DNA of 6,512 bases. Origin: Desulfobacteraceae bacterium 4572_19 (GTDB lineage Bacteria > Desulfobacterota > Desulfobacteria > Desulfobacterales > NBLS01). Position numbers and translations under genes: made by a program. Location: NCBI GenBank assembly GCA_002084385.1, contig NBLS01000106.1, forward strand, positions 1 through 6,512. The letters run 5' to 3'. The notes beneath the pieces are model-generated. The model saw only the letters and a list, made by a program, of their open reading frames with translations, had not been told where the DNA came from and ran no database searches. Every line of letters starts with the position of its first letter. Positions within the stretch are counted from its first letter, which is position 1. This document shows, piece by piece, positions 2,314 to 6,512 of the stretch.

Positions 2314-3825
2314 CTAAAGCCCGAAAGCATAATAGTACGATCCTGGGTAATCTTCATATACACCTTCAACCATGACACCACCTTTCCTATTTTCAAGATA
2401 ATTTACAAAATCATCAATAGTTTTCATGGTCTTGCCATCTACTTTCGTAATGATAAATCCTACTTTTACATCGGTTTGACGTTTCAACTTGCCTGGATAT
2501 AGCTTGGTAATTCTCAATCCTCCAACTAAATCAAGTTTATTTGCTGTTTCTTTATCCACCTCTTCAAGTTCAACACCAATAATGTCAAGTATTTCTTTTG
2601 TTCCACGTTCAAACATCTTTTCCTTTCCTTCCTGGTTCCGAAGTGTTACCAAAAAGTCCATTTCCTTGCTTTTCCGATCGACCTTTATAGCTACTTTATC
2701 ACCTGGATGATGACTGCCAATTATTTCAAGTAATTTAGAGGTTGTTTTCACTTCGGCTCCATCCACTTCAAGGATTATATCGCCTACTTCAATTCCTGCA
2801 TCTCCTGCTGCACTGTTATCGGCTATACTATCAACATATACTCCAGCAGTAACATCAAGTTCTTTCATTTTTGCCAAATTACCGTCAACATTTCTTATCA
2901 TCAATCCGAGATAACCTCGCTGAACCATACCATATTTAAGCAAATCCTCTACAACCTTCGAAACAATATTTGATGGCACAGCAAAACCATAGCCAGCATA
3001 AGCGCCTGTCGGGCTTGCAATGGCAGTATTTATTCCTATAAGCCCGCCTTGCAGGTTAACAAGAGCTCCTCCACTATTGCCCGGATTGATGGCAGCATCG
3101 GTTTGGATAAATGATTCTATGGCACTCCGGTCTTGCAGGATATTGATGTTCCGACCCTTAGCACTTACAATTCCGGCTGTAACAGTTGAGTTAAGGTTAA
3201 AAGGATTACCCACAGCCATTACCCATTCACCGACTTCAACATTATCGGAATTGATTAATGGTAGTGAAGGCAAATCCTTTTCTTTGATCTGTATTAAAGC
3301 TAAATCGGTAGACGGATCTGTTCCTATAACTTTCGCTTTGAAAACACGGTTATCATTGAGAGTAACTTCAATATCATCCGCATTCTCAATAACATGATTA
3401 TTGGTTACAATATAACCCTCTGGATTAATAATTACCCCCGAACCAGTTCCTACTCTTGCCTGAGGCCCTCGCTGTTGCGGTTGTGGAGACTTAAACTGTT
3501 CCTGTGGTCCAAAAAAATACTTGAAAATATCATCATCAAAGAAATCCCTAAACGGGTCAGAATTACCACGATAGTGATAGTTTTTTACATTTTGAACCTG
3601 TGTTGATTTGATATGCACAACAGCGGGCATAACCTTTTTAGCAACATCAGTAAAATCAAGAGGAATAATTTCTCCTTTCTTATCTATCGTATACGCAGCC
3701 CCTACAACCGGGGACCCTGAAATATGTTCAATCTTAATAGATTTCCCATTCCCGGGGTTAACGATTATATATGTTCCAAGCGTAAGAGCGCTACCGATTA
3801 CTGCCGATAATAATAGTTTTTTCAT
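2314..3825 (-). CDS. htrA: Do/DegP-family periplasmic serine protease HtrA
   Basis: This is a trypsin-like periplasmic protease/chaperone that degrades or refolds damaged envelope proteins. The 503-residue protein starts with a signal or signal-anchor segment (MKKLLLSAVIGSALTLGTYII). The catalytic triad is H144 (TNNHVIENADD), D174 (DPSTDLALIQI) and S251 (INPGNSGGALVN). A Q-rich loop before the catalytic domain (about residues 105-122) resembles the LA loop of DegP-type proteins. A first PDZ domain spans about 290-397, starting near RGYLGLMI. A second, more divergent PDZ-like domain spans about 415-500 and ends in YYYAFGL, as is usual for Bacteroidota homologues. Length matches the family. Start choice is supported by AAGGAG nine bases upstream. 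It lies 18 nt after the YfdX-like gene and is very likely co-transcribed with it; a hairpin terminator follows. It may cleave or be modulated by the lipoprotein neighbour, but this is inference. Confidence 0.96.
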   Translation of the reverse strand: MKKLLLSAVIGSALTLGTYIIVNPGNGKSIKIEHISGSPVVGAAYTIDKKGEIIPLDFTDVAKKVMPAVVHIKSTQVQNVKNYHYRGNSDPFRDFFDDDIFKYFFGPQEQFKSPQPQQRGPQARVGTGSGVIINPEGYIVTNNHVIENADDIEVTLNDNRVFKAKVIGTDPSTDLALIQIKEKDLPSLPLINSDNVEVGEWVMAVGNPFNLNSTVTAGIVSAKGRNINILQDRSAIESFIQTDAAINPGNSGGALVNLQGGLIGINTAIASPTGAYAGYGFAVPSNIVSKVVEDLLKYGMVQRGYLGLMIRNVDGNLAKMKELDVTAGVYVDSIADNSAAGDAGIEVGDIILEVDGAEVKTTSKLLEIIGSHHPGDKVAIKVDRKSKEMDFLVTLRNQEGKEKMFERGTKEILDIIGVELEEVDKETANKLDLVGGLRITKLYPGKLKRQTDVKVGFIITKVDGKTMKTIDDFVNYLENRKGGVMVEGVYEDYPGSYYYAFGL

Positions 3826-3843: not shown

Positions 3844-4782
3844 TTACTTTTTAGACTTGGAGATCTTTTCTTTGAATGTTTTTAGTTTCTCTCGAAGTCT
3901 CAGTGTCAAATCGGCTGAATCACCATCATTCACTTTCTTTATTTCCTTCTTTATTTTCTTGATGGCAGAATACATTTCTTCAAATTCTTTATCTTTTTTA
4001 CCATAGCCCAGGGCTTCCGCGAAGTGAATTTGGTATTCAGCATTTTCAAGCAAAGTATTTAAATCTGCATCCTTGTCTCCCTTTTCAAGCAAAGTTGACA
4101 CCTCCGAAAGCATCCGTTCCGCCCTTACCAGGGGAAGAGGAACATACCTGGTTTCAACAAACACGGTACTTAACGCTGTATTTAGAATAATCAGCGCCTC
4201 ATCAGGTTTGTCCTCACTTAGAGCTTTCGCTGCCAAGGACAAAGCATTAGGATATGTGGCCACAGGTAGCATTGGTGTGGTAATTTCGATCTCGCTTGCA
4301 AGGTCTTTGAGCAAATGTCGTGCTGCCTGTAAGTACCCCTGGTCAGTTAAACGATCTGCTTCTTTTCTTATACCCCATAACAAATCCATATCAGTAATTA
4401 CATCACGCGTTGTTATTTGCACATCTAAAGGAAATAGACTCAAATCAGGTCGCGACGCAGTCATTACTACAGCTTTACCTATGGCATCTTCTAATTTTGC
4501 AGTAGCCTCGATATAACTACTGTCAAGAATGTGTTTAACTGCTTGTTCTGTTAAACCAATAATCTGAATAGCATCAGCTATTCTCTCATCATTTGCCAGT
4601 GTTAGAATATCCCTGATCTCCTGGTCAACCTGATCTTGAAGTTGTACTTCTGTAAGGTATTTTTTCGAAGGTACATTTAAAGAATCTAATTGAGCATCAG
4701 ACACACCTACAACGCTTTCGGTCTTGTTACATCCGGCGAAAACTAGTGCCAGAAGGAACATCATCAATGTTAGATTTTTCAT
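3844..4782 (-). CDS. yfdX: YfdX-domain lipoprotein
   Basis: YfdX-family proteins are stress-associated, mostly helical, and of poorly known mechanism; in enterobacteria they occur in acid- and heat-stress loci. The predicted protein has 312 residues. A lipoprotein signal (MKNLTLMMFLLALVFAGC, with C18 as the lipidated residue) points to anchoring in an envelope membrane facing the periplasm. The YfdX-like region runs from about residue 65 to 282. It contains recognisable blocks such as RPDLSLFPLDVQ, EADRLTDQGYLQAARHLL, LASEIEITTPMLPVATYP and AEALGYG. A lysine-rich helical tail follows. The ATG at 4782 was chosen because it gives a proper lipoprotein signal; the frame extends upstream to a TTG at 4827, but that would bury the signal behind 15 residues. 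No strong Shine-Dalgarno is seen. It is 18 nt upstream of htrA and 52-79 nt downstream of the hsp20 terminator. The YfdX assignment is from memory of the family pattern. Confidence 0.85.
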   Translation of the reverse strand: MKNLTLMMFLLALVFAGCNKTESVVGVSDAQLDSLNVPSKKYLTEVQLQDQVDQEIRDILTLANDERIADAIQIIGLTEQAVKHILDSSYIEATAKLEDAIGKAVVMTASRPDLSLFPLDVQITTRDVITDMDLLWGIRKEADRLTDQGYLQAARHLLKDLASEIEITTPMLPVATYPNALSLAAKALSEDKPDEALIILNTALSTVFVETRYVPLPLVRAERMLSEVSTLLEKGDKDADLNTLLENAEYQIHFAEALGYGKKDKEFEEMYSAIKKIKKEIKKVNDGDSADLTLRLREKLKTFKEKISKSKK

Positions 4783-4833
4783 AGCACATGCATTTTTCAG
4801 CCTACAAGCTGCAGGCAGATTAAACAATAATAT

Positions 4834-4860: not shown

Positions 4861-5304
4861 TTATGATATTTTAATTTCTCTTGCAGGTTTAGGTTTAGCC
4901 TCTTCACGCTTTGGCAATGTAACATGAAGAATACCGTTGTCATATTTAGCTACTATCTTATCAGCATTCACAGTATTTTCAGGTACACTAAATGAACGTT
5001 GGAATGCTTGATAGCTAAATTCTCTACGGGTAACCTTCTCCCCATCTTTTTCTTCGTGTTCAGCTTTTTGCTCTGAAGAGATGGATAACCTGCCATTGTC
5101 GTAGCTTACATTGAAGTCACCCTTTTTTAATCCAGGTGCGGCAACGTCAATATAATACTCATTGTCGTTCTCCCTGACATTAACTGCAGGTAAAGTTGAA
5201 TTAGCTCCAGCATAATTATTGCTGTTCCAATCCATCATGTTTCCTTCAAAAAATTTATCCATTAATGAAGGAACCCAATTGTTCGATAATCTTGCTAAAG
5301 TCAT
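4861..5304 (-). CDS. hsp20: Small heat-shock protein, Hsp20/alpha-crystallin family
   Basis: This is an ATP-independent cytoplasmic holdase that binds unfolding proteins during heat or other stress and forms large oligomers. It has 147 residues, normal for the family. A short N-terminal arm (MTLARLSNNWVPSLMDKFF) precedes the alpha-crystallin domain at about residues 38-133. Visible family marks are APGLKK (56-61), the SYQAFQRSFSVPE strand region (97-109), the GILHVTLPK signature (124-132) and the C-terminal I-x-I motif (IKI, 144-146). The start at 5304 is chosen because GGAGGG lies seven bases upstream. The in-frame ATG at 5319 overlaps that ribosome binding site and would add five atypical residues. 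It is the first gene of the minus-strand stress cluster, divergent from the HPF-sigma gene, and followed by its own terminator. Confidence 0.96.
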   Translation of the reverse strand: MTLARLSNNWVPSLMDKFFEGNMMDWNSNNYAGANSTLPAVNVRENDNEYYIDVAAPGLKKGDFNVSYDNGRLSISSEQKAEHEEKDGEKVTRREFSYQAFQRSFSVPENTVNADKIVAKYDNGILHVTLPKREEAKPKPAREIKIS

Positions 5305-5311
5305 GATTAAA

Positions 5312-5317
5312 CCCTCC
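5312..5317 (-). promoter_or_regulatory. Ribosome binding site of hsp20
   Basis: GGAGGG on the minus strand, seven bases before the ATG at 5304. Its position decides between the two in-frame ATG codons (5304 and 5319) in favour of 5304. Confidence 0.8.
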
Positions 5318-5593
5318 ATTTTTTAATTAGACATTGTAATAATTGAACTAATAAATTTGAATTCAGAATACGTTTTTCAATCTATATGCCATTTTTTAGC
5401 CTCGTAGTGGAAAACATTTTTTAAAAGTCAGATAATGAGATGATTAATGGGTTTCATGCTAATAGGAGTGGACAACTTCAAAGATAATGAAACTGACAGA
5501 CATTCATGTCATATTGGCTATTTGGGAGGAAGGTAATTAGGTAACTATACGTTTTGGATTTTGAATTAGTTTATACAAAAAAAATGGGAAGCT
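5318..5593. promoter_or_regulatory. Divergent intergenic region between hsp20 and the HPF-sigma gene
   Basis: This non-coding gap should carry promoters for both directions. It is A/T-rich and holds no convincing gene. Visible elements are a 9-bp direct repeat AGATAATGA at 5430-5438 and 5482-5490, and an imperfect palindromic stretch TGACA...TGTCA around 5494-5511. On the + strand, TTTG at 5521-5524 is followed about 21-23 bases later by TATACGTTTTG. This resembles, imperfectly, the Bacteroidota promoter pattern TTTG/TAnnTTTG and could serve the + strand gene. On the minus strand TTGAAA followed by A/T-rich sequence lies upstream of hsp20, but no clear promoter can be called. All site assignments here are weak. 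Confidence 0.35.
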
Positions 5594-6512
5594 ATGGAAT
5601 ACAAAATAAACAATTTAAAGTGCATCAAAGATAAGCATGAAAAGCAAGCTGCCAGGGAGCTCATCGACCAGTTAACAGGACGATTGGAAAGAGTTGCTGA
5701 CAATTATCCCAAACCAGTTGTAGTTAACATCTTTTTCAATAAAACAGACAATATAAATTATCAGGTTTCAATAGTTGCTAATTTAAAAGAACATGTGGTT
5801 TATATTAAGGAGAAGGGAAAAGAAATAGAAGCCGTCCTATACACCATATTTGACAGATTGAAACTTTTGCTAAACAAGAAAATAGAGAAGGAAAGAAAAG
5901 AGTATTTATATAAACGCCAAAAACTCCGCTTAGCAAATTTTAACGAACATATGCAAGGCTTAATTGAATTTAATCATGAAGATAATCAAGAAGTATTTAA
6001 TAACCTTGCAAGGTTATTACTTAATGATGTTGCAAGTTATATTAGAAGAAGGATTAAATCGGCTGAAACGACTAAGGCTATTGGTCAGAATACTTTTAAT
6101 CCGCAGGAAATATTGGATGAATTATACCTAAAAGTGTATGAGAAAAAAGACGAGATTCCAAAGCAGGAAAACCAAACCCAAGTATGGTTATACAAATTTG
6201 CTGATCGTATACTTGATAATAAATTGAAAGAAGTTGAATTTGAAAAGGCAAACTTCGAGCGATTAGACGCTATAATTGAAGCCGAATATAAATTAATAAA
6301 TGTAGGGTTTACAACAGATGCCGAAAACGAAATTATACCAATTGAAGAACTGGATGATATAGAATATGCTCAGGGACGGTATTCTGCAAGAGATTTGCTT
6401 TTTGAAGAAGATGAAGATACTCTGCTTGATGACATTTTGCTTAGTTATAACCGGAGGAGCATACATAAAATCATTCAATTAGAACTGGCGAAATTACCCG
6501 TTCTGAAAAGAA
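5594..6512 (+). CDS. HPF/RaiA-like domain fused to sigma-70-like factor (3' partial)
   Basis: The frame is open from ATG 5594 to the window edge, 306 codons without a stop, and continues beyond it. Residues about 17-108 resemble a ribosome hibernation factor of the HPF/RaiA type: a beta strand PKPVVVNIFF, a strand INYQVSIVANLK, HVVYIKEKGKEIEAVLYTIFDRLKLLL and a basic helix. Residues about 130-212 resemble sigma-70 region 2: LARLLLNDVASYIRRRI, then NPQEILDELYLKVYEKKDE, then VWLYKFADRILDNKLKE. An acidic linker (about 225-283) leads to SIHKIIQLELAKLPVLKR, which looks like the start of region 4. The predicted role is a cytoplasmic regulator joining a ribosome-binding fold with a transcription factor. 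Start evidence is modest: GGGAAG lies a few bases before the ATG in an A-rich leader. It is divergent from hsp20. Domain calls are by eye; either could be wrong, but the long open frame in this A/T-rich DNA strongly supports a real gene. Confidence 0.8.
   Translation, partial: MEYKINNLKCIKDKHEKQAARELIDQLTGRLERVADNYPKPVVVNIFFNKTDNINYQVSIVANLKEHVVYIKEKGKEIEAVLYTIFDRLKLLLNKKIEKERKEYLYKRQKLRLANFNEHMQGLIEFNHEDNQEVFNNLARLLLNDVASYIRRRIKSAETTKAIGQNTFNPQEILDELYLKVYEKKDEIPKQENQTQVWLYKFADRILDNKLKEVEFEKANFERLDAIIEAEYKLINVGFTTDAENEIIPIEELDDIEYAQGRYSARDLLFEEDEDTLLDDILLSYNRRSIHKIIQLELAKLPVLKR

Follow-up and report, generated by a model that had tools for sequence, protein, structure and literature searches.

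The fusion gene and its family

The stretch of DNA analysed here (the window) comprises 6,512 nucleotides of contig NBLS01000106.1, assigned to Desulfobacteraceae bacterium 4572_19, and ends within a gene encoding an HPF/RaiA-like domain fused to a domain that resembles extracytoplasmic function (ECF) sigma factors. The frame of this HPF-sigma-mimic gene (5594..6511, + strand) stays open up to the window end and covers codons 1–306 of 352, the 3′ end lying beyond the window. The complete gene is found at positions 4663–5721 of L001, a contig of a Bacteroidales metagenome-assembled genome (MAG), and encodes the 352-aa protein P0001. L001 and the window match over 5.1 kb without mismatch, except for one short gap and a 282-base intergenic stretch present only in L001. 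The uninterrupted 306-codon frame reported in the first-pass annotation is therefore real, and the full gene and its homologues have been retrieved. The first homology search yielded 25 proteins, the window's own included, and a subsequent profile search extended the list to 39 (P0001 included), although certain genome searches scored at most five candidates per genome, so that members may be missed. The listed homologues are uniform in length (351–371 aa in 36/39), and their 25-row alignment contains 24 invariant columns. In a phylogenetic tree built from 13 of 35 fusions, L004, four divergent fusions, 12 HPF-less members and 12 ECF sigma factors, the fusions and their HPF-less relatives form one clade. 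A chance open reading frame (ORF) was rejected on the homology search. A phage origin was likewise rejected, as one pattern-based scan of viral contigs gave no relative and a comparison with a library of viral structures produced nothing below E 1e-3, the highest-ranking entries being proteins that are either HPF-like or sigma-like. Two shorter proteins of 208–217 aa (L026:239-892 and L027:1453-2079) were also found, in which an HPF domain is followed by a shorter tail whose terminal piece resembles the linker motif described below; both of their genomes also encode a separate HPF-less sigma-like protein.

In the AlphaFold2 model, the N-terminus adopts an HPF/RaiA fold, and sigma regions 2 and 4 of the ECF type come after it. 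The HPF/RaiA-like domain (residues 1–106; 5594..5911, + strand) has the predicted β-α-β-β-β-α arrangement typical of HPF. Pfam S30AE (PF02482) is matched by 14/25 members at E ≤ 1 (best 1.6e-4), with no match for the window protein or P0001. Relative to the S30AE gathering cut-off of 23.7 bits, the divergent fusions L058 (19.6) and L064 (15.5) fall below and the shortened relative L026 (27.4) above. The tail begins with a sigma region 2-like domain (residues 132–216; 5987..6241, + strand), in which region 2.3–2.4 is acidic instead of basic. It continues with a long acidic linker (residues 217–286; 6242..6451, + strand) containing a motif around DAExE and EELD that is also present in HPF-less relatives, and with the start of a sigma region 4-like domain (residues 287–306; 6452..6511, + strand), which runs on past the window to residue 352. 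Both the sigma-2 and the sigma-4 folds are present in the predicted structure, packing positions are mostly retained in a mixed alignment (W198, L301, L311, I322 and A323), and NCBIfam sigma70-ECF (TIGR02937) is matched by 25/25 members at E ≤ 1. Nothing follows the region 4-like domain in the 352-aa protein, and no receiver domain is seen among the Pfam and NCBIfam matches shown. The proposed fusion of an HPF/RaiA-like N-terminal domain to a sigma-like domain is thus borne out, and the observation is confirmed as real and unusual. Automatic database names pair RaiA with sigma24 in 5/39 listed members (P0004, P0005, P0010, P0014 and P0038), so the domain pair has already been machine-annotated. 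No described HPF-sigma fusion was found in the literature by title or abstract start, a scope outside which most subscription journals lie.

The sigma-like part and its presumed DNA-facing surface

To compare the fusions with ordinary ECF sigma factors, we used positions of sigma regions 2.3–2.4 and 4.2, which we take to be DNA-facing. The comparison included 35 of the 39 homologues (P0023, P0037, P0038 and P0039 were excluded) and 12 ECF controls, some of them closely related to each other, taken from 11 of the 30 loci L028–L057 plus L011; control loci were dropped when they held primary sigmas, when the ORF rule picked another frame, or by eye. The region 2.3 asparagine (position 205), invariant in the controls (12/12), is found in 0/35 fusions, 26 of which have glutamate instead, and in 0/12 other members. 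Position 213 is K/R in 10/12 controls and E in all 35 fusions, and position 215 is K/R in 9/12 controls and D/E in 31/35 fusions. Similarly, in the recognition helix, positions 334 and 339 are each K/R in 9/12 controls, and E in 31/35 and 28/35 fusions, respectively. Positions 212 and 341 are mostly uncharged in the fusions, with 212 still basic in 13/35. The charge of region 2.3–2.4 is +5.1 in the controls (2 to 8) vs −3.6 in the fusions (−7 to 0). A basic residue is retained at positions 152 and 306 in 35/35 fusions and at 201 in 25/35, and positions 172 and 176 of region 2.2 remain acidic. Overall, the sigma fold is retained, whereas the presumed DNA-facing surface is not.

These substitutions bear on the proposal of the first-pass annotation, namely, that the protein is a genuine alternative sigma factor with HPF as a ribosome sensor, sequestered on ribosomes and released as translation changes to transcribe stress genes. 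The joint presence of both sigma folds, the TIGR02937 match in every member of the initial list, the stress-gene neighbours (see below) and the basic residues kept at positions 152, 201 and 306 are what such a factor would display. However, the region 2.3 asparagine is absent from all tested fusions and other members, charges are reversed at positions 213, 215, 334 and 339, and the TIGR02937 scores of P0001 (20.2 bits) and of the fusions of G002 (39.2), G003 (39.4) and G004 (36.6) are all under the 42.9 cut-off. A promoter-directing role for the sigma part is thus not upheld, and we consider a sensing sigma factor quite unlikely. Since the fold is kept and the presumed DNA-facing surface lost, a sigma mimic on a ribosome-binding head fits better.

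A precedent for such a change is PhyR, described as having a correct ECF structure with degenerate promoter and RNA polymerase regions and as acting as an anti-sigma sink (PMC8103513). Like the fusions, it combines an ECF-sigma-like fold with degenerate promoter contacts, a fused second domain and a link to the stress response (PMC8103513), a likeness judged from residue comparisons of the fusions with the ECF controls. Given the residue changes and this precedent, we do not class the protein as an ECF sigma factor. The sigma proteins described in PMC8999054 are similar in that sigma-2 and sigma-4 are accompanied by an extra domain replacing the anti-sigma; by contrast, the fusions carry acidic residues at several basic or Asn positions. 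The string 'ribosom' is absent from the main text of that review.

The HPF/RaiA-like head and canonical HPFs

In an alignment-based residue table bearing on possible contacts with 16S rRNA, five basic columns are common to the fusions and to five canonical HPFs (P0001 positions 30, 72, 90, 95 and 99). The fusions share with HPF/RaiA/pY proteins (PF02482) the N-terminal fold and these basic residues, and differ from them in weak sequence similarity, in the loss of eight canonical basic columns and in a sigma-like tail of ~245 residues. A separate canonical HPF above cut-off is encoded in 7/11 searched genomes, including 4/4 genomes with only an HPF-less member and 3/7 genomes with a fusion or fragment (G001, G003 and G037). 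In the other four (G002, G004, G005 and G154) none was found above cut-off, so that the fusion might fill the HPF role in them, although MAGs may be incomplete. Given this 3/7 vs 4/7 split, the possibility that the fusion is a housekeeping HPF with a tail is rejected in part only.

The same distribution is relevant to the alternative that the fusion is a hibernation factor acting on the ribosome only, its sigma-like part being a reused scaffold that touches the ribosome or forms 70S dimers, like the C-terminal domain of long HPFs. Such a role would agree with the four genomes just mentioned, with the loss of the presumed DNA-facing surface and with the shortened tails of the L026 and L027 proteins. 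Moreover, HibA, an archaeal HPF/RaiA-CBS fusion, represents a known HPF fused to a further ribosome-binding module (PMC13324472). HibA and the proteins described here are alike in having an HPF head joined to another module and in their connection with stressed cells (PMC13324472), but the second module is CBS in HibA and sigma-like here. On the other hand, sigma-2 and sigma-4 have been retained together as an ECF-like unit, HPF-less relatives carry this unit and the linker alone, and three of the seven genomes encode a canonical HPF as well. We therefore regard a purely ribosomal function as fairly unlikely.

Genomic neighbourhood

On the strand opposite to the fusion gene, the window encodes an Hsp20 small heat-shock protein (4861..5319, − strand), a YfdX-family protein (3844..4827, − strand) and an HtrA/DegP-like protease (2314..3825, − strand); hsp20 and the fusion gene are divergent and separated by an intergenic region (5320..5593). 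A divergent hsp20 also accompanies the family gene in L002, L003 and, next to an HPF-less relative, L106. In G554 (L097), a tandem pair of fusion genes flanks a homologue of the YfdX gene and adjoins FtsH. The fusion gene of G450 lies on the same strand as Hsp20, DnaJ, FtsH and thioredoxin (Trx) genes, ClpB and FtsH are found near an HPF-less member in G786, and HdeD-like genes adjoin members in L101 (PF03729) and, by similarity, L102. In total, at least one of Hsp20, YfdX, FtsH, ClpB, Trx, HdeD, DnaJ and baeRF occurs at 11/21 family loci vs 0/19 ECF-sigma controls, which are hand-picked regions from eight genomes, many family loci coming from other genomes. Such neighbours occur at 5/9 loci that contain a fusion or a fragment of one and at 6/12 that lack the HPF head. 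Hsp20 alone gives 6/21 vs 0/19 (p 0.02), or 5/20 (p 0.047) when the window's own locus is removed, and HtrA is not enriched (2/21 family loci, 2/19 controls). Thus, the stress-gene setting opposite heat-shock genes that had been noted for the window is real and recurs in the family.

The transmissible locus of stress tolerance (tLST) comprises genes for Hsp20, YfdX, DegP/HtrA, FtsH, ClpK, Trx and HdeD. This gene set overlaps the neighbours of family members, but only subsets lie near any single member and no contiguous whole tLST was found. For Balon genes, a closely similar set of partners has been reported, namely Hsp20, DnaJ, HdeD, an alternative sigma70 and RaiA (PMC10901736), and baeRF genes are reported to occur with HPF (PMC6514570). 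In the family studied here, baeRF genes (related to the hibernation factor Balon) are located near three HPF-less sigma-like genes (L101:3817-4920, L105:6651-7832 and L109:8968-10122); by contrast, no baeRF gene was found at the nine loci with a fusion or fragment (phmmer, two query proteins).

Several smaller observations were made at these loci. An orphan protein of ~100 aa, which resembles the N-terminal part of P0050 (residues 1–95) and hits neither a Pfam nor an NCBIfam family at E ≤ 0.1, adjoins the sigma-like family in three loci (L097:10123-10422, L103:5028-5363 and L107:3827-4138). Homologous 135-aa orphans are encoded directly 3′ of HPF-less sigma-like genes (L107:8851-9258 and L108:8925-9332), near genes that resemble, by eye, a PAS histidine kinase and a response regulator. 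At the other end of the window, an ORF that resembles Transposase_29 and is tandemly duplicated internally (392–1399) abuts the 3′ end of a short-chain dehydrogenase/reductase (SDR) gene (1299–2219); since the SDR gene ends differently in L001, an insertion or assembly join is placed near window position 1360.

A palindrome upstream of hsp20 genes

Between hsp20 and the divergent fusion gene lies GTCATATTGGC (5508..5518, + strand), which has one mismatch to GYCATNATGRC, a palindrome that precedes hsp20 genes of related genomes. This palindrome (wider form TGYCA-N3-TGRCA) is present in the corresponding intergenic DNA of L002 and L003, and upstream of hsp20 in L119 and in many of L123–L158. Within stretches of at most 280 nt at the hsp20 start, a perfect copy is seen in 4/9 regions of G001–G005, a set that includes the three fusion loci used to define the pattern, and in 7/27 regions of G006–G029, genomes in which no family member was found at 1e-20. 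With at most one mismatch, the corresponding numbers are 6/9 and 17/27, vs 0.24 and 0.57 expected from base shuffles. Within 350 nt of the start of family genes, TGYCA-N3-TGRCA with one mismatch is seen in 5/21 cases (the window, L002, L003, G554 and G291), none perfect. A pattern search of three genomes gave 1, 4 and 4 matches, with 0, 0 and 1 for the reversed-pattern control, and is circular because the pattern was derived from these loci. Five matches lie beyond the fusion loci; they include one that precedes a second hsp20 (L119) and one that is close to another hsp20 without preceding it (L118). The 282 bases of L001 (4314–4595) missing from the window at 5526/5527 hold a perfect TGYCA-N3-TGRCA palindrome.

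Judged from these sequence patterns, the palindrome looks like an operator for the heat-shock response in these Bacteroidales that works independently of the fusion protein; hsp20 and the fusion gene may have it in common. Since it also occurs at hsp20 in genomes that yielded no family member, a further point against a genuine sigma factor, hsp20 is probably no dedicated target. The earlier suggestion of a local target, with Hsp20 in that role, is thus not supported, and a private target of this kind was dropped as unnecessary.

A possible ribosome-docked sigma mimic

Taken together, the fold, the residue changes and the genomic context suggest, with a probability of roughly 0.5, that the fusion is a stress-associated two-headed protein, a sigma mimic docked on the ribosome. 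The protein would be produced under heat or proteotoxic stress and its HPF head would dock at the 30S decoding region, while the sigma-like tail would read no promoters and hold a sigma-binding partner, either core RNA polymerase or, as in PhyR, an anti-sigma. Ribosome hibernation would thereby be tied to transcription. RNA polymerase is slightly favoured as the partner of the tail because acidic residues 172 and 176 are kept and because none of the neighbours identified was recognised as an anti-sigma gene, a set in which no search aimed at anti-sigmas or NepR was made.

The sub-case in which the tail titrates an anti-sigma, with its exposure set by ribosome binding of the head, would make the fusion a PhyR-like anti-anti-sigma. 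The parallel in fold and promoter contacts would fit, but PhyR has a phosphorylated receiver domain and NepR as a partner in the alphaproteobacterial general stress response, whereas the fusions have an HPF domain, Bacteroidota as their named hosts and no NepR identified among their neighbours (no dedicated search). Furthermore, the fusions have no receiver domain, the neighbours identified include no recognised anti-sigma, and the small neighbour protein is without a Pfam or NCBIfam hit at E ≤ 0.1. We consider this sub-case highly doubtful.

Several points weigh against a ribosome-docked sigma mimic. The similarity of the head to HPF is weak at the profile level (14%, E 0.002; hhalign against seven canonical HPFs), and eight columns with a basic residue in four or more of five canonical HPFs (P0001 positions 27, 45, 56, 61, 73, 76, 91 and 97) have one in <10% of fusions. 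The core-binding region 2.2 is partly lost, with position 169 being D in 11/12 controls and K in 30/35 fusions, and position 175 being Q in 8/12 controls and D in 35/35 fusions. Charge ranges in the region 4 helix-turn-helix overlap (−3 to 4 in controls, −8 to 1 in fusions), and region 2.3–2.4 of the HPF-less relatives is near neutral (+0.1). These relatives, 12 of which are in the tree, show that the sigma-like part exists without a ribosome head. Finally, none of the stress classes is found at 10/21 family loci, though certain contigs are short, and the neighbour classes were picked after the loci had been seen.

In its most specific form, the ribosome-docked sigma mimic would park both machines of gene expression, the HPF head silencing and protecting the ribosome and the DNA-blind mimic occupying the place on core RNA polymerase where sigma would bind, a version that we put forward only tentatively, as a somewhat unlikely one. 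In E. coli, shutdown of transcription and translation is ascribed to separate factors, Rsd for sigma and RMF with HPF for ribosomes (PMC6904343). A protein with both heads would turn the link between the two shutdowns into a single testable molecule. We know of no earlier sigma mimic with a ribosome-binding domain, nor is one named in the titles or abstract openings of the papers listed by the literature searches, and the fusion, if it acts in this way, would be the first one known. Moreover, to our knowledge, Bacteroidota are without RpoS and RpoH, the sigma factors that commonly serve the stress response, and the fusion would be a candidate stress factor in this phylum. If both machines are indeed parked by one protein, stressed Bacteroidota would store ribosomes and RNA polymerase together, freeing both upon recovery.
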